Source of the DNA: Pseudanabaena sp. UWO311
GTDB taxonomy: Bacteria > Cyanobacteriota > Cyanobacteriia > Pseudanabaenales > Pseudanabaenaceae
Reading direction: 5' to 3'
Length of the DNA: 64,000 nucleotides
Assembly: GCF_006937785.1 (NCBI RefSeq)
Contig: NZ_SJEE01000003.1
Location: 124,001-188,000 of the forward strand
The notes beneath the pieces are model-generated. The model was given only the letters and a program-made list of their open reading frames with translations, did no database searches and was not told the DNA's origin. The stretch's first letter is position 1. Every line of letters starts with the position of its first letter. A program made the translations under genes and the position numbers. Shown here one piece after another: positions 2,898-44,392 of the stretch.

Positions 2898-2922
2898 GTT
2901 TTTAATTATGCCAAGGTGCTTA
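2898..2922 (+). repeat. 25-bp dispersed repeat, copy 1
   Basis: The word spanning 2898-2922 (core AATTATGCCAAGGT) recurs at 11567-11591 with one mismatch. Both copies are intergenic and precede a degraded CTCTCATA-containing stretch. Origin unknown. Confidence 0.5.
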
Positions 2923-2948
2923 TCTAGAATATAGCGCTTTGCGCTCTC

Positions 2949-2991
2949 ATAAAAAGCAAAGGGGTTACTAGGTGACACCTTTGCTTTTTAT
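2949..2991 (-). terminator. Hairpin terminator of the YbjN-like gene
   Basis: A 14-bp perfect stem (2949-2962 with 2978-2991) has an A-rich left arm, so on the minus strand it reads stem then U-run. It overlaps the stop codon (2988-2990) of the minus-strand gene, the usual geometry of a tight intrinsic terminator. Confidence 0.7.
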
Positions 2992-3509: not shown

Positions 3510-3563
3510 TCAGATATTAGTACTTAGATTAATCAGACTATACCTATATACAGGTACATTTTA

Positions 3564-3626
3564 AAATGAAACCCTAAAAATAGGATGGGGCGCTTTGCGC
3601 CCCATCCTATTTTTAGGGTTTCATTT
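3564..3626. repeat. 30-bp perfect palindrome, loop TTT, between divergent genes
   Basis: Left arm 3564-3593 and right arm 3597-3626 are exact reverse complements around a TTT loop; the apex reads GGCGC-TTT-GCGCC. It lies between the divergent starts of the YbjN-like gene and metK, so it is not positioned as a terminator of either. Outer arm carries the AAACCCTAAAAA-type sequence seen in other copies. Confidence 0.9.
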
Positions 3627-3708
3627 GACCCCTTGTACTATGATGGATAAATCTTAAGAGATACCAAAAATTTGCCTTATTACTTCTTGCGTTTAGGAGG
3701 AAACATAG

Positions 3709-4947
3709 TTGGCTAGTCGCTTCTTATTTACATCTGAATCAGTTACGGAAGGTCACCCTGACAAAATTTGTGATCAAATTTCCGATACGATTCTTGATAC
3801 CTTATTGGCTCAAGATCCGCGATCGCGTGTCGCAGCTGAGGTTGTGGTTAACACAGGTCTGGTCTTGATCACGGGGGAGATCACCACCAAAGCGCATGTC
3901 AACTACGTCGATATTGCTCGTAAAAAAATTGCTGAAATTGGTTATACCAATGCTGATAATGGCTTTTCGGCAAATAGCTGCGCAGTAATGGTAGCCCTTG
4001 ACGAACAGTCTCCAGACATTGCTCAAGGGGTGAATGTTGCACATGAAGTCCGCACTGGAGCGGAAGAAGAAGCGGATATTGAAGCCGTAGGCGCTGGTGA
4101 CCAAGGCATTATGTTTGGGTTTGCTTGCGACGAAACGCCCGAGTTTATGCCGATGCCGATCGCGATCGCTCACCGTCTAGCTCGTCAGTTATCAGTAGTT
4201 CGTAAAAATGGTACATTGCCATATTTGCGTCCTGATGGCAAAACTCAAGTCACCGTGGTTTATGAAGGTGATAAGCCCGTAGCGATCGATACGATCCTAA
4301 TTTCGACACAGCATGATGCGGCAATCGATGGCATTAGTGATGAAGCTAAAGTACAAGAACGTATTCAAGCCGATCTCTGGACACATGTAGTTTTACCTAG
4401 CTTTGCTGATACATCAGTCAAGCCAAGTGACCAAACCCGTTATCTGGTTAACCCCACTGGAAAGTTTGTGATTGGTGGACCTCAAGGTGATTCAGGGCTA
4501 ACAGGTCGTAAAATTATCGTTGATACTTACGGTGGCTATGCACGTCATGGTGGCGGAGCTTTTTCAGGCAAAGATCCCACAAAAGTTGATCGCAGTGCTG
4601 CTTATGCTGCTCGTCATGTTGCTAAAAATATTGTGGCGGCAGGTTTGGCTAGCAAATGTGAGTTACAAATTAGTTATGCGATCGGTGTGGCTCGTCCTAC
4701 CAGTATGCATATTGAGACCTTTGGCACAGGCAAGGTTGATGAAGAGACTTTGCTCCGCTTAGTCAAGGATCATTTTGATTTGCGCCCTGCGGCAATTATT
4801 AAGAATTTTGATCTGCAAAATTTACCTAGTACTCGCAATGGTCGTTTCTATCAAGATGTCGCGGCTTATGGTCACATGGGACGTAACGATCTAGACCTTC
4901 CTTGGGAACGTCTAGACAAAGTGGAACTCTTGAAAAAGAACGCTTAA
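3709..4947 (+). CDS. metK: S-adenosylmethionine synthetase
   Basis: Makes S-adenosylmethionine from methionine and ATP in the cytosol, the methyl donor for most cellular methylation. 412 residues, normal length. Diagnostic motifs: GHPDK near residue 15, [10 protein letters not shown] near 126, and [19 protein letters not shown] near 280, with the C-terminal YGHMGR close. The start is TTG: the strong Shine-Dalgarno TTAGGAGG (3692-3699) sits at the right distance, and no in-frame ATG lies nearby. The N-terminus [19 protein letters not shown] agrees with the family. Monocistronic with its own terminator. No SAM riboswitch is recognised in the 200-bp leader, which instead contains a long palindrome. 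Confidence 0.98.
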
Positions 4948-27617: not shown

Positions 27618-27717
27618 TTTTTTTGGGTTTGTAGAAAGGGGGATCTCAAGCCTTTCTTTCAAAGTCTACTTTATGGCGTAAAGCGCTGTTAAAGGCTGTT
27701 TAGGTTTCATGTATCAC

Positions 27718-27766
27718 AAGAAATTTTTTAAAAGTGTTGCTTTGCAACACTTTTAAAAAATTTCTT
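27718..27766. repeat. 23-bp perfect palindrome, loop TTT, upstream of lipA
   Basis: Arms 27718-27740 and 27744-27766 pair exactly; inner core AAGTGTTGC-TTT-GCAACACTT, trailing GGGTTTT. The core is shared with the palindromes at 23802 and 26061. Confidence 0.9.
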
Positions 27767-27883
27767 GGGTTTTGATAAAGCAAAAAGCGCTGTAATTATC
27801 TCTAACTCGCAATAATGTTAGAATACAAAATGTTACAAAAATTGCATGAACTGCATAGGCTAGAAATCTAGGTAATTACAAAT

Positions 27884-28756
27884 ATGGCAGTCAAACCAGA
27901 TTGGTTGCGAGTTAAAGCCCCTCAATGGGAGCGCGTTGGGAATGTTAAAGAAGTCTTGCGCGATTTGGGGCTAAATACTGTTTGCGAAGAAGCATCTTGT
28001 CCAAACATTGGCGAATGCTTTAACCAAGGTACTGCCACATTTTTGATTATGGGGCCAGCTTGTACTCGCGCTTGTCCTTACTGCGATATTGACTTTGAGA
28101 AAAAGCCTCAAGCTCTCGATCCGATGGAGCCAATTAATTTGGGTGAAGCAGTACGTCGGATGAAGCTTAAGCATGTCGTCGTTACTTCTGTTAATCGGGA
28201 TGATTTGCCAGATGGCGGTGCTTCCCAGTTTGTACGGTGCATCGAAGAGATTCGGAAGTTGATGCCACAAACGACAATTGAACTGCTTATTCCTGATCTT
28301 TGTGCTAATTGGGAAGCCTTAGAAACGATTTTGGCAGCCCGACCTCATGTACTTAATCACAATACTGAGACTGTGCCACGGCTTTACCGACGAGTGCGTC
28401 CACAGGGAGAATATCAACGCAGTTTAGAACTATTACGACGAGCTCGTGAAATAGCGCCTTGGGTATATACCAAGTCAGGCATTATGGTAGGAATGAGCGA
28501 AACCAACGAAGAGGTTTTGGAGGTGATGCGTGATTTGCGAACAGTTGATTGCGATATTATTACCATTGGCCAATATCTACAACCTTCGGCAAAGCATTTG
28601 ACTTTGCATGAGTTCGTAACGCCTGAGCAGTTTGAAGCATGGCGGATTGCTGGTGAAGCTATGGGATTTCTACAAGTGGTGTCTTCGCCGCTTACGCGCA
28701 GTTCTTATCATGCAGAACAGGTACAAGCGTTAATGAAGCTATACCCAAAAGTTTAA
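27884..28756 (+). CDS. lipA: Lipoyl synthase
   Basis: Radical-SAM enzyme that inserts two sulfurs into octanoyl groups on lipoyl domains. 290 residues, normal length. Auxiliary cluster cysteines are in [12 protein letters not shown], and the radical-SAM CxxxCxxC is CTRACPYC near residue 60. [16 protein letters not shown] and the C-terminal [12 protein letters not shown] motif (with the auxiliary-cluster Ser) complete the family pattern. Start [19 protein letters not shown] is canonical. Only 24 bp separate it from pglW, but the two are functionally unrelated. Confidence 0.98.
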
Positions 28757-28780: not shown

Positions 28781-31700
28781 ATGCAAGTACCTAGTCCTAG
28801 TAACTGGATAACAGTTACCGAGTCAAATTTTGCTTGGGAGAGAGAAGCTCTCGAATATATACGGCAGCATTTTCCAAACTGTGAACCGTATAGGGCTTGG
28901 TCAAATTTTGAATTTATTGCTAGTGATGGCAGTATTAACGAGATCGATTTGCTAACGTTTACGACTCAAGGGGTGTTTTTAGTAGAGATTAAAAGCCGTC
29001 CAGGGAGACTATCTGGAGATGCTGGAACTTGGTCTTGGGAGAATGATGGCAAGTCTCGCGCTTATGACAATCCGTTGATTTTGGCAAATAGCAAAGCTAA
29101 GAAATTACGATCGCTACTTGGATCTCAAAAAGCATTTCGTGGAAAGTATAAGTTGCCATTTATCGAAGCCTTAGTTTTTTGTTCTGCTCCTGATTTGAAG
29201 TGTGATTTAAAGGATAATGCTCGATTTCGGATTTGTTTACGCGATCGCTTAGCGACAGCGACTACACCAATGCGAGCGGGAATTATGGCAGCTTTATTGA
29301 AACGGGATTGCCCTGGGCTAGACGAACAACCTAAAGGGATACACGATCGTCCGACGAGTAAAGCCTTTGCCCTAGCAATGGAACAAGCTGGAATTCGCGT
29401 ATCTCAGCAACAACGCAGGGTTAGTGATTACAATCTTGAGTCACAGATTGGAGAGGGGCTGGGCTATCAGGATTGGCTTGCAAAGCATGTTAGCTTACCG
29501 AACTCCGTAAGGCGAGTGCGGTTGTATCTGGTGCATAGTAACTGGCCAGATGTGCAAAAAAAAATTGTCGAACGAGCTGCATTACGGGAATTTCAGTTAC
29601 TCGAATCCTTGCAGCATCCTGGGATTTTACGGGCTTATGGTTATACAGAGCATCAGCTTGGCTCGGCAATTATTTTCGATCACGATCCTTCTTCAATGCG
29701 ATTAGATCTCTATCTAGTTCAGCATAAGGACATTTTAAGCGTGGATATTCGGTTAGATCTATTACGGCAAATTACCGAAGCTGTGGCTTATGCCCATCAG
29801 AAACGAGTTGTTCATCGTGCACTCTGTCCGCAAAGCATTTTTGTAGTGCAGCTATCTCGACAAAGGCGACAAATCAAAATTCTCAATTGGCAGGTTGGCT
29901 ATCGTGGCGATGCTTCGACAACGGGTGGGGAGATGGCGATCGCCGCAACTAGTCATGTGGAAGTACTAGTTGATGACATCAGTAAGGCATATCTCGCTCC
30001 AGAAGCTCTATCTAACATAAGTGAGGGAGAACATCTTGACGTTTTTTCCTTAGGAGCGATCGCTTATCATCTATTCTCTGGGAAGCCACCTGCTAGTGAT
30101 GGCGCAGAACTCAGCAACAAGTTAAGAGCGACGAAGGGATTACAAATCAGTGGTGTAATTGACGGGGTGGGCAAGGAATTACAGGATCTGATTCAGTTGA
30201 GTACCCATCCTGATGTGAGTTTGCGGATCGACTCCACAGTGGAGTTTCTTGAGCGTTTGGAATTGGTTGAAGAGGAATTGACCACTCCTAGCGAACAGTT
30301 TGTCGAAGATCCAATTGTTGCGCAAAAAGGAGATATTCTAGCGGGAGGTTTTCAGATATTGCATCGTCTAGGTCAGGGAGGGTCAGCGATCGCTTTTTTA
30401 GTTGAGCTCGATGGTCAAGAGTTTGTAATCAAGGTTGCGAACGATCCTGAGTATAACGATCGCCTACGCGGTGAATCCGAAGTTTTACAAAAGCTACATC
30501 ACGAGGCAATTGTAGAGTTTCGTGGAACTTCGATGATTGGCGATCGCTTTGCCTTTTTGATGAACCCGATCTATGTCGAGAAAAAAGCTGAGAAAAAAAT
30601 CGAAACCTTAGGACAAAGACTGCGCCGAGAAGGAAGACTACATTTAGAATTACTAGAGCGATTTGGAGAAGATTTGCTCAATGCGGTGCGCTATTTGGAA
30701 GATCAAAAGCTCTATCACCGTGATATCAAACCCGATAATATCGCCGTTGGTCAGGTGGGACGGGGCGATCGCCTCCATGCGGTTTTGTTTGATTTTTCAC
30801 TTTCCAAAGTACCAATAGATCAGATTCGAGCGGGAACTACGGGCTATCTCGATCCATTACTACCCCTAAGAAAACCACCGATCTGGGATAGCTATGCAGA
30901 ACGCTATGCTGTCGCTATTACTCTGTATGAATTGGCGACAGGGACGATTCCGAAATGGGGAGATGGTATTAGCGATCCTTCTTTTTTGGAATGCGAGATT
31001 ACGATTGATGCAGAGTTATTTGATTTGGCTTTACGAGATAGCCTGCCAGAGTTTTTTGCTAAGTCACTAAAGCGCAATTTTGCCGATCGCTTTGATAATG
31101 CAGAACAAATGCTGCGGGAATGGCGGGAATGTTTTGCGGGACTAGAACCATCGGGAGCAACTCTCACAGAAGAAGAGCGCATCAACCTACAAGAGCAAAT
31201 TGCGATCGCTACAGAGGATACTCCCATCGCTGAGCTGGGGCTAGGAGCGAGGGCATTGCAAGCACTCGATCGCCACAACATATTGACAGTTAAGGAATTG
31301 CTATCAGTACAGACAGCTTGGCTGGTGAGTCTGCGGGGTGTCGGGAATAAAACTAGGCGTGAGATTGCTGATGTTGTCAAACAGTTCCGCGATCGCATGG
31401 ATATCACCGAAGTAGAGCTTAGTAAGGTGGGCTATCAGCCTATATCGCAGAATGTGGTCGATCCTAGCAAGCTCAGTATTAATACGCTGGTGCAACGCAT
31501 CATCCGCGCTAGTGGCAAAGGGTCACCGAAATCTAAAAGTAGTTGGGCGAAGGATTCGGCAATTGTGAAATTGCGAAGTGATGTCGCCGACATTTTGGCG
31601 GCGGCAGGATTGGTGATGTCGCTAGACGAGGCGGCGACGGCGATTTTGGTGGCGAGGGGTTCGGATTATGATGAGCCGCAACGCACTAACTATGCGATCG

Positions 31701-32914
31701 CTATTTTGCGAATTGTTTTAGAAGTGGAAGCGGAGATGGCAAAACCTCGGTTTAAGCTTTATGAAAATAAGCTAGATGATAATCAAGATGACGCGAAGCC
31801 TTCTCTAGCATCGCCTTTGATCGCTGCTGATATCGAAGCCTTTAACTATGCGATCGCCTTGGGGCAGGTCGCTGATCGCTTGGCACAAAGCGATCCACTG
31901 TTACCGCCAAGTCGATCAATTTCGCAATTGAGGGAAATTTCTGTACCTGTGACGATGGAGACTCTGAATGAGTCTAGACTGATGCGGTTGGCGGCGGTGG
32001 CTTCGTATCAGGCGGCGCTATCTAGTCGGCAAGAGTTTTATCCGCGTGGCATGGAAGCAGAACGGGCACTCAAATTGTCCCAAGGCGCGTTATTTGGGGT
32101 AAATAATCTGACGGTCGTGGAAATCCGCGATCGCATTGCTAGTCGCTATCCCGCAGCTGAGAAGATACCAGACCATCCGCAACTTGATGAATTGCTGACG
32201 GCAGCAGGGTTAGAATTTCGCTGGGATGCAACGGGGGCAAAAGGTTGGGGCTGCTATGTGAATCGCTTGTTTAGTCCTTATTCTGATTCGTCTTCTGTAA
32301 ATTCCTTTTCACGGCAACCGACGGCTTTGGGTACGCTGATTTTGGGTGAGATCGATGAGGCGGCGGCTGATGCACGGTTATTTGAGGAGAAGTTGCAACG
32401 TGGAATTAAGCAGGGATCTTTTTTGGTGATGCTGGTTTTGCCAACCTATTACCAACAGGCGATCGCGGAAATCTCTAACCGATTGCCCGTGGTACATCTT
32501 AGTTTTGAGGATATGCTGCTCGATGCTTTGCAAGAGGTTGCTGATGCTGCTAAGGTCAACTGGGAGTTGGTAATTGAGACTGATGCAAAACCCGATGAAG
32601 GGGATTGGGACAAGTTATTATTGCTGGTTGATCGCGCATTAGCCTTAGTCGATCGACGATTAGCTGCGGCTAATTGCACGGTTTTATTAAGCTATGTGGG
32701 AATGCTGGCAAGGTATGATCGCTTGAATTGGCTTGAGAAATGGCGAGATCGGGTGGGTGATGATTTGGCTGGTTTATGGGTTTTAGTGCCAGGCGATCGG
32801 CAAGCATTTTTAGAAGGTAAAGCGATTCCCTTATTGAGTCCTTCGCAGAAAGTAACCGTTCCCAAAGGCTGGCTAGAAAATCGACATCGGGCAGTCAGCC
32901 CAGACTTACAATAG
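28781..32914 (+). CDS. pglW: BREX type 2 (Pgl) protein kinase PglW with NERD domain
   Basis: Large kinase of the phage-growth-limitation/BREX-2 system. 1377 residues. Order: NERD nuclease-related domain (about 15-130, with EIDLLTFTTQGVFLVEIKS), a first kinase-like domain (about 230-490), a second kinase (about 525-780), a helix-hairpin-helix segment (SLRGVGNKTRREI, about 850), and a long C-terminal region. The first kinase copy has HRALCPQS in place of HRDxxxxN and no DFG, so it looks like a pseudokinase. The second has LGQGGSAIAF, FVIKVAND, HRDIKPDN (about 645) and DFS for DFG, so it may be active. Start ATG at 28781. Next on the strand, after an inverted xis remnant, comes the broken pglX. 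Confidence 0.93.
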   Translation: MQVPSPSNWITVTESNFAWEREALEYIRQHFPNCEPYRAWSNFEFIASDGSINEIDLLTFTTQGVFLVEIKSRPGRLSGDAGTWSWENDGKSRAYDNPLILANSKAKKLRSLLGSQKAFRGKYKLPFIEALVFCSAPDLKCDLKDNARFRICLRDRLATATTPMRAGIMAALLKRDCPGLDEQPKGIHDRPTSKAFALAMEQAGIRVSQQQRRVSDYNLESQIGEGLGYQDWLAKHVSLPNSVRRVRLYLVHSNWPDVQKKIVERAALREFQLLESLQHPGILRAYGYTEHQLGSAIIFDHDPSSMRLDLYLVQHKDILSVDIRLDLLRQITEAVAYAHQKRVVHRALCPQSIFVVQLSRQRRQIKILNWQVGYRGDASTTGGEMAIAATSHVEVLVDDISKAYLAPEALSNISEGEHLDVFSLGAIAYHLFSGKPPASDGAELSNKLRATKGLQISGVIDGVGKELQDLIQLSTHPDVSLRIDSTVEFLERLELVEEELTTPSEQFVEDPIVAQKGDILAGGFQILHRLGQGGSAIAFLVELDGQEFVIKVANDPEYNDRLRGESEVLQKLHHEAIVEFRGTSMIGDRFAFLMNPIYVEKKAEKKIETLGQRLRREGRLHLELLERFGEDLLNAVRYLEDQKLYHRDIKPDNIAVGQVGRGDRLHAVLFDFSLSKVPIDQIRAGTTGYLDPLLPLRKPPIWDSYAERYAVAITLYELATGTIPKWGDGISDPSFLECEITIDAELFDLALRDSLPEFFAKSLKRNFADRFDNAEQMLREWRECFAGLEPSGATLTEEERINLQEQIAIATEDTPIAELGLGARALQALDRHNILTVKELLSVQTAWLVSLRGVGNKTRREIADVVKQFRDRMDITEVELSKVGYQPISQNVVDPSKLSINTLVQRIIRASGKGSPKSKSSWAKDSAIVKLRSDVADILAAAGLVMSLDEAATAILVARGSDYDEPQRTNYAIAILRIVLEVEAEMAKPRFKLYENKLDDNQDDAKPSLASPLIAADIEAFNYAIALGQVADRLAQSDPLLPPSRSISQLREISVPVTMETLNESRLMRLAAVASYQAALSSRQEFYPRGMEAERALKLSQGALFGVNNLTVVEIRDRIASRYPAAEKIPDHPQLDELLTAAGLEFRWDATGAKGWGCYVNRLFSPYSDSSSVNSFSRQPTALGTLILGEIDEAAADARLFEEKLQRGIKQGSFLVMLVLPTYYQQAIAEISNRLPVVHLSFEDMLLDALQEVADAAKVNWELVIETDAKPDEGDWDKLLLLVDRALALVDRRLAAANCTVLLSYVGMLARYDRLNWLEKWRDRVGDDLAGLWVLVPGDRQAFLEGKAIPLLSPSQKVTVPKGWLENRHRAVSPDLQ

Positions 32915-32936: not shown

Positions 32937-33269
32937 TTAACTAACCGCAAAATCGGTGTATTTGCAGAGATTTGGCGGATCGAAGGCGAGGACAATATCT
33001 GTTTTAGGAATGCCGAGATCTACTAACTTATTGGCTATGCCAATTTCTGTACCGTCTTGCTGAATCCAAATTTTATTATCGATAATGTCAAGGTGAAGAA
33101 CAACGCCGTAGACTCGTTTGGAGTTGCGCCAACCCACATAGATGAGTTGATAATGGTCATGTTCGGTATCAAAAATAGTTTCAGCGCGAATTCGGGTATC
33201 CCAAACTAGGCTGGCATGTTCTTTTAGGAGGTTTTGGATATGTTGACGGTATTGGGAGATGGTATCCAT
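32937..33269 (-). CDS. xisI: XisI-family protein
   Basis: 110 residues, normal XisI length. IQNLLKEHA, YQLIYVGWRNSKRVYGVVLHLDIIDNKIWIQQDGTEIGIANKLVDLGIPKTDIVLAFDPP is the standard family core. XisI was named from fdxN-element excision control in Anabaena, but XisH-XisI pairs are widespread in cyanobacteria away from any such element. Here the XisH partner is truncated (next entry) and the pair lies inverted between pglW and pglX. Read-out of function is not possible; XisI is probably orphaned. Confidence 0.93.
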   Translation of the reverse strand: MDTISQYRQHIQNLLKEHASLVWDTRIRAETIFDTEHDHYQLIYVGWRNSKRVYGVVLHLDIIDNKIWIQQDGTEIGIANKLVDLGIPKTDIVLAFDPPNLCKYTDFAVS

Positions 33270-33348
33270 AGGGATCGTGGGTTATTTGCCAATTTTCTTT
33301 TTCAAGGGCGTGTCTGACAACTTGGTGAAATAGATCGCGGGCTGACAT
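33181..33348 (-). pseudogene. xisH: Truncated xisH fused into the xisI start
   Basis: The minus-strand ATG at 33346-33348, preceded by a good AGGAGG, opens MSARDLFHQVVRHALEKENWQITHDPYG, the XisH N-terminus. After about 28 codons (near 33265) the sequence runs directly into the xisI coding start in another frame and stops at 33181. Intact XisH is about 138 residues, so about 110 codons are deleted. XisI keeps its own ATG inside the junction. Confidence 0.85.
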
Positions 33349-33423: not shown

Positions 33424-34353
33424 ATGCCGATCGCTCGCTCATCATTGCTCAAAGATTTACAAGTTCTCTTGAAGAAGTTGGAGGATGACTTGATCGATCG
33501 CAGCACATCTACAGAAATACCCGAAATCGGGTTGCGGTTGCGGAGTACCTATGAGCAGGCAAAGAAGGCACAGCATACGGCGCAGAGTTTTGAGGAATGG
33601 CGATCGCTTTCTGTGGCGCAGGTGGCGGCGGCTTGGGTATTGAGTTGTGTATTTGTGCGATTTCTGGAAGATAACAAAATGATCGAGCCGCCGAGGTTGG
33701 CGGGGGTGGGAGATCGCTTGTCACGGGCAAGGGATGAGCATGAGTTATATTTTCAAAAATTTCCCACCCATAGCGATCGCGATTATTTGTTGGCGGTTTT
33801 TCAGGATTTGGCGAAGTTGCCTGTGGCGGGGGAAGTATTTGGCGAGGGGAATGGTATCTGGCGGATGGCGAATTGGTTGAGTGGGGATGCGGCGGCGTTG
33901 TTGTTGCGGTTCTTTCAAAAAATTGATGCGAATACGGGTTTGTTAGTCCATGATTTTACGGATTCTAATTGGGATGCCAGATTTTTGGGCGATCTCTATC
34001 AGGACTTGTCGGAGGCGGTGCGGAAGCAGTATGCGTTGTTGCAGACTCCTGATTTTGTGGAGGCGTTTATTTTGGATCGCACGTTGGAACCTGCGCTGAA
34101 GGAGTTTGGTTTGGATGGTTTCAAGATGATCGATCCTGCCTGTGGGTCGGGGCATTTCCTGTTGGGCAGTTTTACGCGGCTATGCGATCGCCTATCACGC
34201 AACAATCCTAGCCAAAATATGCGGGTGTTGGTACAAAATTGCGAAACATTGGGAAATTCTTTAACCAGTAAATTTACTGTTATGCCATTCAAGATATTCG
34301 TTGTCTGGCAAATATTTTGGATTTTCAGGAATATACAATTTTCTCCCGTGTAA
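33424..34353 (+). pseudogene. pglX: 5' fragment of pglX (BREX type 2 adenine methyltransferase)
   Basis: Residues 1 to about 274 match a PglX N-terminus: helical domain (ARSSLLKDLQVLLKKLEDDLIDRS, AQVAAAWVLSCVFVRFLEDN) then the SAM-binding motif I, MIDPACGSGHFLLGSF. After MRVLVQN, near 34242, homology ends; the remaining codons are antisense to the HNH gene and end at 34353. The catalytic NPP(Y/F) motif and target-recognition region are gone. Intact PglX is about 1,200 residues. A separate C-terminal scrap lies at 35255-35464. As it stands this cannot be an active methyltransferase. Confidence 0.85.
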
Positions 34354-35202
34354 AGCATAGTATTCTCTACCATTTTCGTATTCTTCCTTAATTCGATTAC
34401 TAACTTCTACCTGAAAGTTTTTTGTAACTGTGAGATAGAATCCATCAAATAAGCGGTGTAGATCAGCACGAAGTAAAATGCCATTATTAGGCGCATGAGG
34501 ACCGTTTTCTGCAAAGTTCCTTATGTGAGCTGCCTCTAAGGCTGGCAAAGTTTTTTCGCCTGTAATTGCACATTTTCTCTGATATATATCAGTTATCAAA
34601 ACACGAAATGCACCTTGTCCCAAGCGAGGATTCACAGAATAAGATTTTCCATAACCAGAACCAGACGGTCTAAGTTTATCTAAACTAGAATCTACTAATG
34701 TATTGCTTGAGACCGAAGAAACTTTTTTAAGATTCTCTTGAACTTGTAACCACAATCTATTTCCTATCTCCGTCTCTGTATTGTAGGTCTTGCCTTGAAC
34801 AATATTGAGCTTCCAGTCTTCTGGAATAGGTATCCAATCTTCTCTCTTAAAGAAAAATGGTTCTAATAAAATACTACATCCAACATTTGGATTAGGGACA
34901 TCAGGTTTATTATTACTTCTTCTATATTTAATTATTTTTGACCTAAAATCTTGAAAAGAGCTAACTCCATTTTTTTCTTGGAAAGCCTCCCAAGCTATTG
35001 TCATTGGTAGGTCAGAATATCGCATAAAGTAGCCGCCACCAGCTATATAGTTAAGTGGACTATGTAACTTGAACAGGAAAATTTCAATCTCTTTTTTGAA
35101 TGGAGGTCTGCCACTAGGCTGCCAAAAATTCACTTCATCTGGCTGCAATTGAGATAAGAACTTATACCAATCATTGTCTGTGACTCCTACCCAAAATTTC
35201 AT
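34261..35202 (-). CDS. HNH endonuclease (predicted restriction-type) inserted in pglX
   Basis: 313 residues from the ATG at 35200-35202 (MKFWVGVTDNDWYKFL); the open frame runs 51 codons further into pglX remnant sequence, which I exclude. The N-terminal domain (residues 1-120) has the FWQPSG...FLFKL substrate-binding-like form seen in such enzymes. The HNH nuclease domain is near 215-275: RKCAITGEKTLPALEAAHIR, then NNGILLRADLHRLFDGFYLTV, keeping the Cys-x-x-Thr, His, Asn and His positions. It is antisense to the island and more AT-rich than pglX flanks, so it was probably acquired. It may act as a stand-alone restriction nuclease. Confidence 0.9.
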   Translation of the reverse strand: MKFWVGVTDNDWYKFLSQLQPDEVNFWQPSGRPPFKKEIEIFLFKLHSPLNYIAGGGYFMRYSDLPMTIAWEAFQEKNGVSSFQDFRSKIIKYRRSNNKPDVPNPNVGCSILLEPFFFKREDWIPIPEDWKLNIVQGKTYNTETEIGNRLWLQVQENLKKVSSVSSNTLVDSSLDKLRPSGSGYGKSYSVNPRLGQGAFRVLITDIYQRKCAITGEKTLPALEAAHIRNFAENGPHAPNNGILLRADLHRLFDGFYLTVTKNFQVEVSNRIKEEYENGREYYALHGRKLYIPENPKYLPDNEYLEWHNSKFTG

Positions 35203-35254
35203 ACTAACTGTTAGTGAAAAAGATATTTTTAAGTTATAACGATTATATGTCCTA

Positions 35255-35464
35255 TTGCTTATGATGGTCGCGCCATTACTAGCCAGTTTAGTCGAGCTAA
35301 TCCCTTGGCTCAAACAATGGCACAACGACATAGATTCAGAATTCGGCTTAGCCATGGGTGACTATTACGAAGTATTTTTGATTGAAGAAGCTAAAGCGAT
35401 CGGGCATACGGTTGAGAGTTTGAGGATGTGGGAACCCGTTGGCAAAGTAAAAAGTAAAAAGTAA
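35255..35464 (+). pseudogene. pglX: 3' fragment of pglX
   Basis: Codons from about 35265 encode LLASLVELIPWLKQWHNDIDSEFG...MGDYYEVFLIEEAKAIGHTVESLRMWEP, the typical end of a PglX protein (VPWLKQWHN...GDYY...EEA...L). It is in the same direction as the 5' fragment but separated from it by the HNH gene and about 850 missing codons. It ends in the AAAAAGT tandem repeat, whose frame supplies the stop. Confidence 0.8.
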
Positions 35465-35484: not shown

Positions 35485-35712
35485 ATGCACCAAGTCACCT
35501 TACAAGACGCAGAAAAGCACCTCGCTAATCTCCTCGCAGAAGCCAACAGAGGCGAAGAAGTAATCGTGGTCAATGACGATGGCACATTATTTAAAATTAT
35601 TGCGATCGGTAAAACTCGACCAGTCCCAAAATTTGGCAGCGCCAAAGGCTTAATCAAAATGTCCGATGACTTTGACGAGCCATTAGAAGACTTTGCGGAG
35701 TATGCCCCATGA
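35485..35712 (+). CDS. Type II antitoxin (Phd/YefM-like)
   Basis: 75 residues. MHQVTLQDAEKHLANLLAEANRGEEVIVVNDDGTLFKIIAI is the Phd/YefM-type N-terminal DNA-binding fold, followed by an acidic toxin-binding tail (SDDFDEPLEDFAEYAP). The stop overlaps the toxin ATG by 4 bp (ATGA), the usual coupled arrangement. It should neutralise the downstream PIN nuclease and repress its own promoter. Confidence 0.9.
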   Translation: MHQVTLQDAEKHLANLLAEANRGEEVIVVNDDGTLFKIIAIGKTRPVPKFGSAKGLIKMSDDFDEPLEDFAEYAP

Positions 35713-36095
35713 AGCTCTTACTCGATACCCACGCTTTTTTATGGTTTATCGAAGGCAACCAAAATCTGAGTCTAACTGCCAAAAATGCGATCGAATCTCC
35801 AACTAATCAAAGGTATTTGAGCATAGCCAGTCTTTGGGAGATTGCAATCAAAGTCAGTATTGGCAAACTAGAGATAGGCATGACCCTCACAGAATTGGTC
35901 AACCGTGAGGTCTACGGCAATGCGATCGAGATGCTAGAAATACAGTCCCATCATCTCGATACCTTAGCGGGTTTACCGTTTCATCACAAAGACCCATTCG
36001 ATCGCCTTATCCTCTCTCAAGGATTAACCGAAAAAATGCCCATAGTTACTAAAGATGGGCTATTTGCCAATTATCCCGTAACCCTAATTTGGTAA
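35709..36095 (+). CDS. PIN-domain ribonuclease toxin (VapC type)
   Basis: 128 residues. Acidic metal-binding residues are present: D6 in LLLDTHAFLWF, E in SIASLWEIAIK, and D in HHKDPFDRLILSQ. A toxin of this type cleaves RNA when freed from its antitoxin. Coupled to the upstream antitoxin by an ATGA overlap. It lies in the gap between pglX and pglY, with a convergent Rpn gene downstream. Confidence 0.92.
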   Translation: MKLLLDTHAFLWFIEGNQNLSLTAKNAIESPTNQRYLSIASLWEIAIKVSIGKLEIGMTLTELVNREVYGNAIEMLEIQSHHLDTLAGLPFHHKDPFDRLILSQGLTEKMPIVTKDGLFANYPVTLIW

Positions 36096-36970: not shown

Positions 36971-37543
36971 TTAACTAAATTGCACCCGTTTATACAAATC
37001 TCGCAAACTGACCTCTAGCGGCACTGACACCAACTTAATTACAGCCCCCTCTCCCCTATGGGTCAGCAATACCCATCGATCTTCCGACTCCTTAACATAG
37101 TGATCGACTTCATAACCATTTTGATACACCAAAACATATTCCCGAAAGCTAGACAGCGATCGATATTGGCGAAACTTGCCATCATGATCGTAGCCTTGAG
37201 TAGAGCTAGATAAAATCTCCACAATCAAACAGGGATTAGTCACTTCCATCTGTCTTTGATCGACAAAAACAGGCTCACCCGCCACCACCATCACATCAGG
37301 ATAGGTATAACGATTATATTCAGGCATCCATAACCGCATATCGCTCATGAATGTCTCATAGGTTTGATCGCCAATTACTAGCGGTAAAAGCCGACAAAAA
37401 TTTAAGGCGATTTTGTTGTGATTTGCGGAAGCTCCTGCCATCGGGATAATTTCTCCATCAATAAACTCACTCTTAAATTCGGCTTTATCCTCTAAGGCTA
37501 AATATTCCGATGCGGTATATCGTTTAGTCGCGGCTAACACCAT
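36971..37543 (-). CDS. Uma2-family nuclease-like protein
   Basis: 190 residues, the compact Uma2 form. Core: RYTASEYLALEDKAEFKSEFIDGEIIPMAGAS, YTYPDVMVVAGEP and NPCLIVEILSSSTQGYDHDGKFRQYRSLSSFREYVLVYQ, with the D/E-x-K-like acidic and Lys residues. Followed by the Rpn gene after 11 bp and transcribed opposite to the BREX genes. Start ATG at 37541-37543. Confidence 0.92.
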   Translation of the reverse strand: MVLAATKRYTASEYLALEDKAEFKSEFIDGEIIPMAGASANHNKIALNFCRLLPLVIGDQTYETFMSDMRLWMPEYNRYTYPDVMVVAGEPVFVDQRQMEVTNPCLIVEILSSSTQGYDHDGKFRQYRSLSSFREYVLVYQNGYEVDHYVKESEDRWVLLTHRGEGAVIKLVSVPLEVSLRDLYKRVQFS

Positions 37544-37645: not shown

Positions 37646-38293
37646 ATGCATACCACACTCACCCCACCATCTGAGCGCATTTTACTTTCCAGCATTCGTT
37701 GGGAAACCTATCGCGCGATCGCCCGTGACTGCGAACAACAACCTCGCACCCGACTCACCTATGACCAAGGACAACTAGAAATTCGGATGCCCTCTGACCT
37801 CCATGAAACCTACAAAAAATTATTAGGTAGAATTGTTGAAGCCCTCACAGAAGCTTGTGAACTAGAGATTCGTAGCCTTGGCTCGATGACCTGCGATCGC
37901 CAAGATCTTGCCCGTGGCTTAGAACCAGACCAGTGTTATTACATCCAAAATGAAGCCGCAATCTGGGGGAAAGAAAACATTGATTTACAGACCGATCCAC
38001 CTCCAGATCTAGCGATCGAAATCGATATCACCAGCAGCTCACTCAATCGCTTCAAAATCTATGCCCGTCTGGGAGTACCTGAAATTTGGCGCTATGACGG
38101 ACAAGTACTAACCATATTTGTGCTTGAGTCATCAACGGATGGCGATCGCTATGCAGCTTCTCAATACAGTATCGCGCTGCCCTTCGTCAAAACCACCGAT
38201 CTACAAAGATTTCTCAGCCTTAAACCCACCGTTAAAGAAAATGCCTTAATTCGCCAAGTGCGGGAATGGGCGATCGCTAAAAATATTAAATAA
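37646..38293 (+). CDS. Uma2-family nuclease-like protein, adjoining pglY
   Basis: 215 residues. RLTYDQGQLEIRMPSDLHETYKKLLGRIVEAL, PDQCYYIQNEAAIW and PPDLAIEIDITSSSLNRFKIYARLGVPEIWRYDGQVL give the Uma2 fold and catalytic-like residues. The stop at 38291-38293 is 6 bp before the pglY ATG, so it is almost certainly cotranscribed and could be translated together with pglY-pglZ. It has little in common with the minus-strand Uma2 next door and is a separate acquisition. Confidence 0.92.
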   Translation: MHTTLTPPSERILLSSIRWETYRAIARDCEQQPRTRLTYDQGQLEIRMPSDLHETYKKLLGRIVEALTEACELEIRSLGSMTCDRQDLARGLEPDQCYYIQNEAAIWGKENIDLQTDPPPDLAIEIDITSSSLNRFKIYARLGVPEIWRYDGQVLTIFVLESSTDGDRYAASQYSIALPFVKTTDLQRFLSLKPTVKENALIRQVREWAIAKNIK

Positions 38294-38299
38294 AAGCCC

Positions 38300-41200
38300 A
38301 TGACGCTCCTCAAAGACCTAATCGAAATTCCTGAAAGCCTCCAAAAAGGTGACTTTGTACTCAATCTGTCATCAGTGGCGAATGATGCCGATAAGATCCT
38401 GCGCGATTATGTCGTTACGCCCGAATTACAGAAATGCTTTGAAAAAGCACTCAACTTTATCCGCAGCACTCTCCAAACCAACGTCAGTAAGGCAACTTAT
38501 CTACATGGCAGCTTTGGTAGCGGCAAAAGCCACTTTATGGCTGTCCTCTACCTCATCCTCAAAGGCAACCTCACCGCCCGCAGCATCAACGAACTCGCAC
38601 CCGTAATCGCCAAAAATAACGAATGGGTCACAGGTAAAAAGTTCCTTTTAGTTCCGTACCATGCGATCGGCTCCGAAAATATGGAGTCCTGCATCCTTGG
38701 TGGCTATGTCGATTTCATCCGCCGCACCCATCCCGAAGCACCGATTCCAGGCGTATATCTTGCGGAAGGAATGTTTCAAGATGCCGCAAATCTGCGATCG
38801 CAAATGGGCGATGTCGCTTTTTTTGCAGCGCTCAATGGCGCAAATGCCACTAATACTGGCTGGGGTGAAATTGCCGCCAATGATTGGAATGTTGAGAGTT
38901 TTGAAAAAGCCACCAATGCACCACCCGCAACCGAAGTGCGATCGCAAATCATCGGTGCATTGATTAAAGCTTTTTTCAATTCCTACGATCAACAAGCCAA
39001 AGGCGAAGCTTTTCTATCTCTTGATAAAGGACTATCAGTAATCAGTCAGCACGCCAAGAGCCTCGGCTATGATGCCCTCATTTTATTTCTTGATGAATTG
39101 ATTCTCTGGTTAGCCAGTCGCGCCACCGACTTAAGCTTTATCCATCGCGAAGGACAGAAACTCTCCAAACTCGTCGAAGCTCAAACCCCCGATCGCCCAA
39201 TTCCGATTGTCAGCTTTGTGGCAAGACAGCGCGACCTCAGCGACCTAATCGGCAATGCTGTCCCTGGAGCCGAACGCCTTAACTTTAGTGATGCCCTCAA
39301 ACATTGGGAAGGCAGATTCGATCGCATCGTTCTCGAAGATCGCAACTTACCTGCGATCGCCCAAAAGCGCGTTCTCCGTCCTAAAAATCCTGCCGCCACA
39401 ACCGAGATTGATGCCGCCTTTGACAAAACTCTCAGCATTCGTGAAGCAGCCATGAATGTCCTACTTACCCGCGAAGGCGATCGGGAAATGTTTCGACAAG
39501 TCTATCCATTTAGCCCCGCCTTGATTCAAGCCCTAATCGCCGTCTCTAGCGTCCTCCAACGCGAACGCACCGCCCTCAAAATCATGGTGCAAATGCTTGT
39601 GGACAGGCGCGATTATCTTGCCGTTGGAGATATTCTGCCCGTGGGAGATTTATTTGATGCGATCGCCCATGGGGACGAATCCTTCAGTCCCGAAACAGCC
39701 TTTCATTTTGACAATGCCAAGCGGCTCTACCATCAAAAACTGCTGCCCATGATTGAGAAGCAGCACGGTTTGCGCCGCGAAGAATTTGAACTTCTGTTAG
39801 AGAATGACCCCAAGCGCATTGCCTTTTTCAACGACGATCGCTTGATTAAAACTCTACTATTATCGGCGCTTGTGCCTGAAGTGGAAGTCTTGCGCAGTCT
39901 CACGCCCGAACGTCTGTCTGCACTCAACCACGGCACTATCAAAGCCCCGATTCCAGGGAGAGAAGGACAGATCGTTTTGCAAAAATGTCGGCAATGGGCT
40001 GGCACTATCGGCGAAATTCGTCTCACCGAAGGTAATATGCCAACAATCTCTATTCAGCTTTCTGGAGTGGATACCGAGAGCATCATCGCCCAAGGCAAGC
40101 GCGAAGACAACCATGGTAATCGGATCAGGCTCGTGCGTGACTTATTATTCAAGCAACTAAACATCCAAGGCGAAGATGAACTAGAGCAGAGTTTTACCCA
40201 TCTTTGGAAAAACACAAGACGCTCCTGTACAGTCATGTTTCGGAACATTCGCGAACTACCTTTCACCGTCCTAGAAAACAATAGCGATCGCTGGAAAATT
40301 ATCATCGACTATCCCTTTGATGTCGATACCCATACCCCGCGTGATGATATCAGTCGGATTCAATCCTTCAGCGAAGATCATCCCCAAGGAGCCAAGACCC
40401 TAGGTTGGATTCCTGCCTTTCTCAGTGAAGACGCTCTCACCGATCTTGGTATGCTCGTTACCCTTGAGCATATTCTCGCTGGCACAGGCGAACGGTTTGC
40501 CCAGTTTGCGAATAATCTCTCAGCACAGGATCGTCAAGCCGCAAAGTCCTTATTAGAAAATCAGCGCAGCAGTCTCCACCAAAGAGTTTTACATCATTTA
40601 GAAGTAGTCTATGGACTCGAATCTTCCGATACTAATTCCATTAACTCTGCGCGATCGCTCGAATTAAACGAACGTTTTCAATCCCTTTACGAAGGACTAC
40701 AGCTCCAGCCGCCTGTGGCTTCTACCCTGCGAGATGCACTTACCAATTTATTAGAACAAGCACTAGTTTACGAATTTCCCTCCGCACCAGAATTTGAAGC
40801 CGAAATTGAAGCCAGTAATAATCTTGAGAAAGTCTATCGCGTGATCCTTGATGCAACCCAGCAAAACGATGGCAGAATTGCGATCGAAGATCGGAAACTC
40901 CGCCTACTAGTTCGCCAAATTGCCAATCCATTATTACTAGGCGAAATGGCTCCAGATGCCACCCACTTTGTGCTCGGACAGCATTGGAAGCAACTCTTCA
41001 CACGCAAAATTGCGGAAGCAGGCGGAGCGATATCCGTAGGGCAGTTGCGCCGTTGGCTTGATGAGCTAAAACCAATGGGACTACCTGCGATCGCCCAAAA
41101 TCTCGTCATACTCATCTTCACGGCGCAAACCAATCGCCTTGCTTATCGCAGCAATCTCGCGATCGAGCCAACCCTCAAATCTCTGCCCGATGATATCGAG

Positions 41201-42079
41201 TTTCGCACCCAACAGCTTCCCGATGAAGCAATATGGCAAGTTGCCCTAGATCGCGCCAGTAGCATTTTTAATGTGCAAATCTCTAGATTGCTCAATGCTC
41301 AAAATGTCGCCATCCTCAATGAACAAATCGCCAATCTCGCATCAGAAAATATCGACCATGCCAAACACTATGCCAATATACTCACTGACTCTATAAAACG
41401 ATTTGCGATCGCCAATCAGATCAATAAAAACTGCGATCGGCTGCAAACAGCTCTAGCGATCAGTCATGCTCTCGAAAGACTCAAAGCCAGTAAATCAGAA
41501 GACGTAATCAATATCCTGGCGGATATTACGATCGCTACCTCTGAGACTGCGATGAAAGAATGTTTCAGGCAACTAAAAACACTTGGTAAATCTTTGGATC
41601 GTGCAAATTGGGAAATTCTCAGCGCCATTCAGGTCATAAGCCAAGATATAACTGATGAGCGCTCAGCTGAAGTTAAAACTTTGCTAGATAACCTGACCTA
41701 TGCCCTTAGTGGCGATGAATATGCGATCGCCTTATCACCTGTACTTAAAGATTCAGAAGCTAAAGCCACCCGCATCCTTACAGCAAAGCCAAAAAATATC
41801 CCATTGCCAACCTCTGCCCCATTTCCCCTATTACCTAACCAGCCCACTCAAATTGCCGCTGATTCTACAAAGCCACTAACCCATACCCAATCATTAGCCA
41901 CAAATATTAATCCAACCATCACACCTGCTCCACCGCTCCCAACTAGCGAACAAATCATTAGTCAAGAAAACCATGAAAACATTAATCTAGCCGAAGCCGA
42001 GCAACTTCTCAGTAGTTTAAAATCACAGCAAAAACAAAATCAAAAAATCCGTATTAATTTAAGTTGGATTGTCGAATAA
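38300..42079 (+). CDS. pglY: BREX type 2 ATPase PglY
   Basis: Large P-loop ATPase of the Pgl/BREX-2 system. 1259 residues. The N-terminus MTLLKDLIEIPESLQKGDFVLNL is family-like. Walker A GSFGSGKSH is at about residue 70, and the Walker B-like ALILFLDELILWLAS at about 253. The C-terminal half is helical, with a Pro/Thr/Gln linker near the end (PLPTSAPFPLLPNQPTQ) and a LEQLLSSLKSQQKQNQ-like tail. Intact over its length; no frameshift seen. Four bases (TAAACAATG junction) before pglZ, so both are one transcriptional unit led by the Uma2 gene. Confidence 0.93.
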   Translation: MTLLKDLIEIPESLQKGDFVLNLSSVANDADKILRDYVVTPELQKCFEKALNFIRSTLQTNVSKATYLHGSFGSGKSHFMAVLYLILKGNLTARSINELAPVIAKNNEWVTGKKFLLVPYHAIGSENMESCILGGYVDFIRRTHPEAPIPGVYLAEGMFQDAANLRSQMGDVAFFAALNGANATNTGWGEIAANDWNVESFEKATNAPPATEVRSQIIGALIKAFFNSYDQQAKGEAFLSLDKGLSVISQHAKSLGYDALILFLDELILWLASRATDLSFIHREGQKLSKLVEAQTPDRPIPIVSFVARQRDLSDLIGNAVPGAERLNFSDALKHWEGRFDRIVLEDRNLPAIAQKRVLRPKNPAATTEIDAAFDKTLSIREAAMNVLLTREGDREMFRQVYPFSPALIQALIAVSSVLQRERTALKIMVQMLVDRRDYLAVGDILPVGDLFDAIAHGDESFSPETAFHFDNAKRLYHQKLLPMIEKQHGLRREEFELLLENDPKRIAFFNDDRLIKTLLLSALVPEVEVLRSLTPERLSALNHGTIKAPIPGREGQIVLQKCRQWAGTIGEIRLTEGNMPTISIQLSGVDTESIIAQGKREDNHGNRIRLVRDLLFKQLNIQGEDELEQSFTHLWKNTRRSCTVMFRNIRELPFTVLENNSDRWKIIIDYPFDVDTHTPRDDISRIQSFSEDHPQGAKTLGWIPAFLSEDALTDLGMLVTLEHILAGTGERFAQFANNLSAQDRQAAKSLLENQRSSLHQRVLHHLEVVYGLESSDTNSINSARSLELNERFQSLYEGLQLQPPVASTLRDALTNLLEQALVYEFPSAPEFEAEIEASNNLEKVYRVILDATQQNDGRIAIEDRKLRLLVRQIANPLLLGEMAPDATHFVLGQHWKQLFTRKIAEAGGAISVGQLRRWLDELKPMGLPAIAQNLVILIFTAQTNRLAYRSNLAIEPTLKSLPDDIEFRTQQLPDEAIWQVALDRASSIFNVQISRLLNAQNVAILNEQIANLASENIDHAKHYANILTDSIKRFAIANQINKNCDRLQTALAISHALERLKASKSEDVINILADITIATSETAMKECFRQLKTLGKSLDRANWEILSAIQVISQDITDERSAEVKTLLDNLTYALSGDEYAIALSPVLKDSEAKATRILTAKPKNIPLPTSAPFPLLPNQPTQIAADSTKPLTHTQSLATNINPTITPAPPLPTSEQIISQENHENINLAEAEQLLSSLKSQQKQNQKIRINLSWIVE

Positions 42080-42082
42080 ACA

Positions 42083-44392
42083 ATGATCGTCCCCAGTATC
42101 AATCAAATTAAGGTGCAAGTTACGACCATTCGCAAAAAAAGTGAAAATGCCAAATTCATTGGTATTCACACTTCAGGACAATGGATTAGCGAAACAGTGC
42201 AAACCGATGGCGATATCACCATTTACATTCATCCATGTAAATCTCCTCTAGCAATCCGCTTAATCATGCGAGATGTCATGCAAGATGCAATCCGCAATCT
42301 AGATCAAGATCGTCAAAACAATAAAATCCACGTTCTTCTAACTCCCCTAGAAGACAACGATCTTGGCGAAGATATTCTCATGCGATTGGCTAAACGGAAA
42401 CTTTTGGCGATCGATGTTTGGGAAGTCGTCAAATCCTTATTTCAAGCAAATGCGATCGATCCACGTCTGCGGAAAGAACGCTGGATCGCCGAATATTTGA
42501 TTGATTGGAGTAGCACCGATAGTTATGCACCTGTTAGCAACGGCTTTCTCGATGCCGAGACAGTTTGGACAATCCTTTTAAATCGCGGTTTAGACATTTC
42601 CGATTTCTCTCCCGATTTACCATATATTTTGAAATGGTCAATAGATAACGATCGTATTACTAAACTCAAAACTGCTCCACCGATCTTTCAACAAGCCGTA
42701 ATTGCTTACCTCACAAATCTTGTCGGCAGAACAGCTCATTACATATTGCGCTGTGCCTGCCAAACAGAACGCAACGATTTAGTCTCTCTAGGCTTAGTAT
42801 TTGGAGTTTTATTTCATCCCCAAGCATCAGGAAAGCTGGATAAGGCGATCGGTAAAATCGAAGAGCGCTATTTACAAGGAGAAAGCCTAACTCCCGATTT
42901 GGGAATTGCTTGGCGAGATGCAACTCAGGAAGTGATTCAATGGCGTTTATCATCAGAAATCCAACAGCGATCGCAAATCTTGCATCGCGCCGACGAGATT
43001 TTGCAAGAAGTTGGTGCTAGTCATCTAGCCCACCTCAGCGAGATCTCACCACTAGGTTTTCATCAGCGACTTGAGTCCTTTGGACAAACTCTATCGTCTA
43101 TTCTAAAAAAATCACTCAAAAACTCCAGTGGATTAAAAAAACTGCTCGCTTGTCGTCATGAAGTATTAGGACATACCTTAGCTAAAGAGGAGCAATATCG
43201 TAGTCGCATCAATAATCTCGATATGGCGATTAGGCTGTGTAAGTGGGTTCAACAACAAACAGAGACAAATTCTTTGCCACAATCCCTAACGGGCGCGATC
43301 GACATTGAACTCAGTGACAACTGCTTTGCAGACTGGGCAAGACATTCGCTGACTGCCGATGAGCCGTTACAAATACTTTCAGCCGCCTATGCTGAGCTTT
43401 TTAATCTTGCTGTCAAAGCACGCGAAGACCATTCACAAAACTTTGCCCATCTTTTTGCTAGTTGGACAGAGTTAGGCTCAAATAACAATGAAGTATTAAA
43501 TGGAGTATTAGTAGTTGAAAATGTTCTCAAAGATATCGTTGCACCGATCGTATCTCACAATCCAGTTCTTTTGATTGTTTTAGATGGAATGAGTATGTCA
43601 GTATGTTTTCAACTACTAGAAAATATCACTCGTCAAGGTTGGTTACTATTGCACAAAGAAGATCGAGATTTTCCAGTAATACCAGCCCTAGCCACAGTTC
43701 CATCAATCACTGAAATATCACGTACTAGCTTATTGTGTGGGCGAGTAAGAAGTGGTAGTGCAAAGGACGAAACCTCTGGATTTACATTTCATCCTGACCT
43801 TAACGAGCGCAGCAAACAACAGAAAAAACAAGCTCCTCTCCTATTCCATAAAACCCATCTACAAGGAGAAGAAGATGTAACTCTTAGCCAAGATGTGCGC
43901 CAAGCAATTGCATCTAGTGATCGCCTAGTCATCGGTGTAGTTGTCAATGCGATCGATGACCGTCTAACTAAAGGTGAGCAGTTGCATGTGAACTGGACAC
44001 AGCAATCCATAAACCTCCTCCCTGCTCTTTTACATGAAGCAAAAAATAGCGATCGCATCGTGATTTTGGCAAGCGATCATGGCCATATTATTGAGCATGG
44101 AACTAAACTAATATCTACAACAGAGGGAGGCGAAAGATGGCGACCTGATGATGGCAATCTTACAGACCAAGAATGTCGATTGACTGGAAGTCGAGTTGTT
44201 GCATCGGAACACAGGGTAGTAATTGCACCTTGGTCAGAGCAGCTTCGCTATAAGCCCAAAAAAAATGGATATCATGGTGGAGTCAACCCCCAAGAGTTAG
44301 TAACTCCTGTTGCAGTATTATCTTCAGGAAAATCTTTCCCTAGTGGTTGGATAGAGTCACTAAATAAGTTTCCTAGTTGGTGGAATATTTAA
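42083..44392 (+). CDS. pglZ: BREX type 2 phosphatase-domain protein PglZ
   Basis: 769 residues. N-terminal part IHVLLTPLEDNDLGEDILMRLAKRKLLAIDVWEVVKSLF is PglZ-like. The alkaline-phosphatase superfamily domain starts near 480 with PVLLIVLDGMSMSVCFQLL and has the second metal site in VILASDHGHIIEHGT near 655, then the VIAPWSEQLRYKPKKNGYHGGVNPQELVTPVAVL end. Metal-binding Asp and His are retained. It directly follows pglY. The set lacks brxD and brxHI within this window. Confidence 0.95.
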   Translation: MIVPSINQIKVQVTTIRKKSENAKFIGIHTSGQWISETVQTDGDITIYIHPCKSPLAIRLIMRDVMQDAIRNLDQDRQNNKIHVLLTPLEDNDLGEDILMRLAKRKLLAIDVWEVVKSLFQANAIDPRLRKERWIAEYLIDWSSTDSYAPVSNGFLDAETVWTILLNRGLDISDFSPDLPYILKWSIDNDRITKLKTAPPIFQQAVIAYLTNLVGRTAHYILRCACQTERNDLVSLGLVFGVLFHPQASGKLDKAIGKIEERYLQGESLTPDLGIAWRDATQEVIQWRLSSEIQQRSQILHRADEILQEVGASHLAHLSEISPLGFHQRLESFGQTLSSILKKSLKNSSGLKKLLACRHEVLGHTLAKEEQYRSRINNLDMAIRLCKWVQQQTETNSLPQSLTGAIDIELSDNCFADWARHSLTADEPLQILSAAYAELFNLAVKAREDHSQNFAHLFASWTELGSNNNEVLNGVLVVENVLKDIVAPIVSHNPVLLIVLDGMSMSVCFQLLENITRQGWLLLHKEDRDFPVIPALATVPSITEISRTSLLCGRVRSGSAKDETSGFTFHPDLNERSKQQKKQAPLLFHKTHLQGEEDVTLSQDVRQAIASSDRLVIGVVVNAIDDRLTKGEQLHVNWTQQSINLLPALLHEAKNSDRIVILASDHGHIIEHGTKLISTTEGGERWRPDDGNLTDQECRLTGSRVVASEHRVVIAPWSEQLRYKPKKNGYHGGVNPQELVTPVAVLSSGKSFPSGWIESLNKFPSWWNI

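Follow-up and report, generated by a model that had tools for sequence, protein, structure and literature searches.

Introduction

In the BREX type 2 (Pgl) system of Streptomyces coelicolor, the genes pglW, pglX, pglY and pglZ follow one another in this order (PMC4365076, PMC12839542). A catalytic mutant of PglX was described to abolish resistance in Streptomyces, and PglX is reported to be toxic in this host when PglZ is absent (PMC4365076). PglX of BREX type 1 systems has been described as necessary for both restriction and modification where this was tested (PMC12707154). A BrxHI helicase and a BrxD ATPase are given for about 90 % of the taxa with a type 2 system, and HNH nucleases are described as common beside BREX genes and have been proposed to be auxiliary effectors (PMC12839542). 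Frequent disruption of pglX by frameshift or insertion sequence, with the other BREX genes staying in place, has been described (PMC9122589, PMC9716671, citing Goldfarb 2015). Such disruption has been interpreted as phase variation (PMC9122589) and the acquisition of pglX by transfer as a means of restoring BREX (PMC9716671).

A nuclease of the modification-dependent type is encoded within the BREX type 1 locus of the E. fergusonii plasmid island pEFER, beside an intact pglX gene. This enzyme, BrxU, belongs to the GmrSD (DUF262-DUF1524) family, and the account of the island states that a delta-pglX derivative still protects, through BrxU alone, whereas the double mutant does not (PMC8565348). 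Another group of modification-dependent endonucleases, to which VcaM4I (EVE-HNH) and TagI (SRA-HNH) belong, combines an N-terminal domain of the PUA superfamily, a linker and a C-terminal HNH domain in about 300 amino acids. Enzymes of the VcaM4I type are described as independent of NTP, and VcaM4I as reading modified cytosine (PMC7897488).

A BREX type 2 locus without a complete methyltransferase gene

The stretch of Pseudanabaena DNA analysed here (the window) covers 64 kb of a 271-kb contig from a 5.2-Mb genome in 61 contigs. The pglW gene (28781..32914, plus strand) encodes a full-length protein with a NERD nuclease and kinase domains (1478 bits with NF033442, cut-off 990; Pfam NERD and Pkinase), as expected of the PglW kinase of BREX type 2. 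The BrxC-type ATPase PglY (38300..42079, plus strand) is likewise full length and scores 996 bits with NF047891, which falls short of the NCBI cut-off of 1700, a value that none of the 14 genomes with a match attains, and 1414 bits with the PADLOC BrxC profile. A full-length type 2 PglZ is encoded at 42083..44392 on the same strand (NF033446, 634 bits, cut-off 200). Internal stops are absent from all three proteins. The gene order is that of S. coelicolor, with remnants in the place of pglX. Differences from that system are the loss of the PglX core and the presence, between pglX and pglY, of Uma2 genes and genes of the toxin-antitoxin type.

The PglX profile NF033451 (1185 positions) covers the window only at its positions 2-264 and 1124-1184. 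The N-terminal remnant lies at 33424..34235 on the plus strand and retains motif I (DPACGSGHF); its reading frame continues past the pglX sequence as far as 34353. The C-terminal remnant, of about 65 codons with the stop, lies at 35268..35464 on the same strand. About 270 N-terminal codons are left beside these, while 859 (by the profile) to 892 codons (by comparison with a relative, G025) are missing. The intact PglX N6-adenine methyltransferase that BREX type 2 requires is thus lacking, positions 265-1123 being gone, and the locus is a BREX-2 locus by descent and not a complete system. NF033451 has just one further match in the genome (E 6.5e-10), within a 1017-aa gene of the Eco57I/N6_Mtase type on contig C28; a profile search of all 61 contigs detected neither the missing core nor a second BREX-2 PglX. 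A PADLOC scan of 20 window proteins found neither BrxHI nor BrxD.

G025, a genome of the same genus, has the same order of pglW, pglX, pglY and pglZ and an intact pglX gene of 1245 codons. DNA homology to G025 runs at 90 % up to about 34235 and returns at about 35268 with 93.5 %. By alignment with G025 and its sister genome G023, an AT-rich insert of 1,032 bp (34236..35267) stands for 2,675 bp of pglX (about 892 codons). Its GC content is 35.0 %, whereas the window has 43.0 % and the N-terminal part of pglX 50.1 %. Homology at the joins is not visible, repeats at the joins were not seen by eye and only short repeats occur around the insert.

The insert carries a single gene, which is antisense to pglX (34261..35202, minus strand) and encodes an HNH endonuclease of 313 aa with a likely start at 35202; a 364-aa frame merely extends upstream into pglX remnant sequence. 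The stretch 5' of this gene within the insert (35203..35267, minus strand) is non-coding, and a consensus scan gave no promoter-like site in it; such sites number 9 in the region against 6.7 in shuffles, at most slightly above chance. An intein or intron in pglX was rejected because 859 profile positions are gone, and a multicopy element because the insert DNA is present once in the genome. Sites of GCGATCGC, a dense occurrence of which goes with cyanobacteria, number 109 in the window against 0.8 expected in shuffles; their absence from the insert (0 against 1.8 expected, probability 0.17) is uninformative.

These results bear out the original prediction of a BREX type 2 locus with full-length pglW, pglY and pglZ genes, a gutted pglX and an inverted, AT-rich HNH gene in the gap, which is also foreign in composition. 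The predicted remnants of 274 and 65 codons are correct to within a few codons, and the predicted loss of about 850 codons agrees with the 859 to 892 given above. An ancestral HNH-split gene order would have spoken against the prediction; relatives carry an intact pglX, so that the split form is derived.

Various small modules surround pglX in this and other genomes. The space between pglX and pglY holds here a VapB-type antitoxin gene (35485..35712, plus strand; Pfam DUF2281, NCBIfam TA_VapB below cut-off), a PIN-domain toxin gene (35709..36095, plus strand; Pfam PIN), an Rpn gene and two Uma2 genes (36971-37543 and 37646-38293), which match the PADLOC candidate families PDC-S03 and PDC-S17. 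Elsewhere this space is occupied by HepT and a nucleotidyltransferase (G091), Uma2 and HepT (G127) or DUF5615 (G025), and in G170 a Uma2 gene lies between pglW and pglX. A XisI gene (Pfam PF08869, 5e-45) is located antisense at 32937-33348 between pglW and pglX, and another is present at the matching place in G127. Just upstream of the former, a short frame with a start that we take to resemble XisH diverges thereafter, which would fit a deletion of xisH. At 27717-27767 lies a perfect inverted repeat of 24 nt around a 3-nt loop, with many similar copies in G012, G023 and G025.

Exchange of the pglX module

The genes of the locus differ greatly in their divergence from G025. Values of dS are 1.17 for pglW, 0.87 for pglY and 1.02 for pglZ, compared with 0.25 for the N-terminal part of pglX and 0.14 for vapB, the latter being 96 % identical in DNA. 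Identity to G025 jumps at the start of pglX and drops inside the PIN gene, both edges being sharp; the flank that contains the lipoyl synthase gene (27827-28749, named from sequence) is 84 % identical. As pglX and vapB are far less diverged than pglW, pglY and pglZ, the pglX-vapB module was exchanged horizontally between lineages after the divergence of these three genes. The sisters G023 and G025 (loci L069 and L066) have pglW genes that are 99.9 % identical, while their PglX proteins share 97 % of the first 572 residues and 54 % of the rest, which would fit a swap of the specificity part.

Pairwise dN/dS values against G025 are 0.09-0.16 for pglW, pglY and pglZ and average over a long history. 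In the N-terminal part of pglX, synonymous and non-synonymous changes were counted as 15:8 on the branch of the present genome, 16:11 on that of G025 and 14:12 on that of G023. These branch counts reveal no relaxed constraint in the N-terminal remnant relative to G025 and G023, so that either pglX would have been gutted late or the fragment would still be constrained. The observation argues for a loss of the pglX core that is apparently recent.

Breakage of pglX in cyanobacterial BREX-2 loci

A survey of 388 genomes of the class, entered via pglZ, gave 15 genomes with a type 2 PglZ match at 1e-30, of which nine had loci readable across pglX; G008, G012, G190, G202, G346 and G385 were omitted as not readable end to end. 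The pglX gene is intact in five of the nine (G025, G081, G091, G127 and G305). It is broken in the other four: by the HNH insert here, by an IS4-type insertion in G023, by ISL3 in G069 and by a single frame change in G170, which may be a sequencing error. An apparent single frame of 1648 aa across pglX of G069 turned out to be this ISL3 insertion. All nine loci have whole pglW, pglY and pglZ genes (0 of 27 broken), pglW of G305 running across both ends of a contig of 51.5 kb, which was read as circular. The difference between 4/9 and 0/27 gives p = 0.002 in a small sample that includes the sisters G023 and G025. In G385, which is outside the count, pglW, pglY and pglZ lie in several frames, and pglX, which runs into the contig end, is open as far as it can be read; with these three genes counted as broken, the comparison becomes 4/9 against 3/30 (p = 0.037). 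The pglX gene of G190, also uncounted, ends in an unrelated coiled-coil frame at the contig end. We presumed this frame to be IS66, which Pfam and NCBIfam did not confirm.

As in the disrupted loci described before (PMC9122589, PMC9716671), pglX is damaged while the other BREX genes stay. The disruptions in these accounts are frameshifts or insertion sequences, whereas in the present locus the core of the gene has been replaced by a nuclease gene.

Domains and predicted fold of the HNH protein

The HNH protein matches Pfam HNH_2 at 8e-12. HNH domains were its only matches in Pfam, and none was obtained with the EVE, SRA or ASCH profiles. H226 and N240 are invariant in all seven aligned sequences and H249 is conserved in six of them; the three residues are presumably catalytic. 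A sequence search of the PDB gave six matches, the best of which (6yex, VcaM4I; 5e-4) is confined to the HNH part, the other five having values of at least 0.39.

A structure model built on seven sequences is of middling confidence (mean pLDDT 76.6, pTM 0.52). It consists of a PUA-type N-terminal domain (residues about 1-160), a linker helix and the HNH_2 domain. Foldseek placed VcaM4I first, then TagI and after these ASCH proteins, with ScoMcrA and EcoKMcrA following above E 0.01. Over the whole chain, the model superposes poorly on VcaM4I (TM 0.29, rmsd 20 A), either because the two proteins differ in the arrangement of their domains or because the model is uncertain in this respect. When residues 1-160 were realigned on their own, ZmASCH gave a Z score of 12.8, the EVE protein 2eve 8.6 and YTH domains about 7.5; scores under 8 may reflect a common arrangement only. 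Residues 194-313 aligned with the TagI nuclease (Z 12.9).

The protein is thus predicted to consist of a PUA-type (ASCH/EVE/YTH-like) domain and an HNH domain, a modelled architecture that is that of NTP-independent modification-dependent endonucleases. It shares the domain order and the size of about 300 aa with VcaM4I and TagI, and differs from them in that its N-terminal domain fits ASCH structures better than EVE and has no Pfam match. If active, it would be a type IV (modification-dependent) enzyme cutting modified DNA.

Distribution of the HNH family and its methylase neighbours

Relatives that cover the N-terminal domain are 31-55 % identical and occur in Balneola, on Deinococcus and rhizobial plasmids and on IMG/VR contigs. 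In a sample of the phylum, 16 of 386 genomes have a match at 1e-25, and the N-terminal domain is covered only here and in G586, where the gene is frameshifted; the family is rare in the sampled cyanobacteria. Homology to the G586 copy begins at the start codon, so that there is no shared upstream flank. The gene was rejected as a common phage gene, as 50,697 phage records gave seven matches, none of them over 80 % of the length. Among viral contigs, the single protein as query found no relative, and an alignment as query found six loci.

Eight copies have an open full frame (L071, L073, L074 and L131-L135); L072, with a stop near the start, the frameshifted L075 and G586 and the partial L136 were not counted as open. 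Five of the eight lie within 1.5 kb of a DNA methylase or type I specificity gene, a raw count uncontrolled for background, to which the IMG/VR contigs may contribute a bias. The neighbours are a type ISP gene in L074, an Eco57I-type gene in L131, N6_N4 in L132, HsdS in L133 and a C5 methylase in L135. They were called by a profile scan of nine proteins, for L073 and L074 also from the record annotation, while L134 and the second C5 methylase of L135 were read by eye. BREX genes were not seen beside the family outside the present genome in the stretches read. On the viral contig L135, a longer HNH relative (2898-4250) with about 140 extra N-terminal residues, which look EVE-like by eye and have no Pfam match, adjoins an NgoFVII-type nuclease and C5 methylases.

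A search of the genome for another methylase, as the original prediction had proposed, gave seven N6_Mtase matches and one D12 match without internal stops, only these two families having been sought; none of the matches is a second BREX-2 PglX. With these eight other predicted N6-type methylase genes in the genome, a general attack on adenine methylation (m6A) by the HNH enzyme is unlikely. The mark read may be a modified cytosine, by analogy with VcaM4I, or a special context.

Interpretation of the locus

The reading that fits best, to which we give a probability of about 0.6, is that a BREX-2 locus has recently lost its methyltransferase and that the HNH protein, if active, acts alone as a type IV enzyme. 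In one or more non-homologous events, pglX would have lost its core for catalysis and specificity and received in exchange about 1 kb of DNA that contains one complete HNH gene in antisense orientation. BREX should then be off, both in modification and in exclusion, because the PglX catalytic mutant is unprotected in Streptomyces and PglX is needed in BREX type 1; pglW, pglY and pglZ would be passengers for now. Since PglX is toxic without PglZ, losing PglX first would be the safe order. The PUA domain of the HNH enzyme would flip the modified base and its HNH domain would cut, so that the enzyme could by itself restrict phages with modified DNA. The locus would in this respect resemble the laboratory delta-pglX derivative of the E. 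fergusonii BREX/BrxU island, with BREX off and the type IV enzyme on. As in the pEFER locus, a nuclease gene of the modification-dependent type lies within a BREX locus at pglX; the present locus differs in its destroyed pglX and in the PUA-HNH type of its enzyme. A dying or switched-off system was one of the two outcomes originally predicted, and the four broken pglX genes among nine readable loci favour it. The full length of PglW, PglY and PglZ speaks against a system that is switched off, as it would also fit retained function.

A less probable, though still tenable, variant holds that pglX is an often broken, horizontally exchanged cassette with the HNH gene as an incidental passenger, and that recombination in the conserved ends of pglX could swap an 'off' allele for a working one. 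The low dS of the pglX N-terminal part and vapB with their sharp edges, the differing pglX genes of G023 (with its IS4-type insertion) and G025 next to a shared pglW, and the published views of pglX disruption as phase variation (PMC9122589) and of its transfer as restoring BREX (PMC9716671) all favour such exchange. With 2.7 kb gone, however, no small reversal could repair the gene, and the intact alleles compared come from relatives, none from this species. Considerably more doubtful is a conflict between writer and reader, in which the HNH enzyme would read the BREX methyl mark and could establish itself only after pglX had been lost. The N-terminal domain does fit ASCH structures best (Z 12.8), and ASCH domains have been predicted, without proof, to be m6A readers (PMC11037411). 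A general m6A cutter would nevertheless be self-destructive in a genome with seven N6_Mtase genes and one D12 gene, the relatives L074, L131 and L132 adjoin N6-type methylase genes, and VcaM4I reads modified cytosine.

The other predicted outcome, a rearranged working system, seems improbable in a form that has PglW, PglY and PglZ detect the infection and guide the HNH nuclease. It could draw on the full length and the low dN/dS (0.09-0.16) of the three genes and on the proposal that HNH nucleases beside BREX genes are auxiliary effectors (PMC12839542). But there is one instance only, the HNH gene is antisense and, in other genomes, the stretches read around members of the family contain no BREX genes. 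The loci with IS4 and ISL3 lesions retain the same core although their pglX holds no HNH gene. The original suggestion that the HNH enzyme supplies the attack while another methylase marks self found no support, as none of the other full-length copies seen lies in a BREX locus and modification-dependent endonucleases of the predicted fold are autonomous and do without a self-marking methylase. Equally improbable is an 'inverted BREX', in which PglW, PglY and PglZ would work without a methylase together with a PUA-HNH enzyme attacking marked DNA; if true, a former writer locus would have turned into a reader-nuclease locus. Misassembly is unlikely, and the least probable reading of all: the genome is a draft of 61 contigs, yet the two ends of pglX are correctly ordered and oriented well within a contig of 271 kb, the insert DNA occurs only once and none of the contigs carries the missing core. 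The reading given first, with BREX off and the type IV enzyme possibly on, is preferred.

Conclusions

In this natural BREX locus, the place of the methylase core has physically been taken by a nuclease gene with type IV architecture. HNH genes beside BREX are already described as common (PMC12839542), and the unusual point is the place of this gene, inside the excised methylase core. Literature searches, which were not exhaustive, found no description of a pglX gene replaced by a nuclease gene and no experimental report on this PUA-HNH family. Among the few cyanobacterial loci compared, it is pglX that is lost while pglW, pglY and pglZ stay whole. The case, whose components are of known kinds, raises the questions of what role PglW, PglY and PglZ have without PglX and of whether the loss of pglX lifts a barrier to cutters of modified DNA, and it draws attention to the PUA-HNH endonuclease family.
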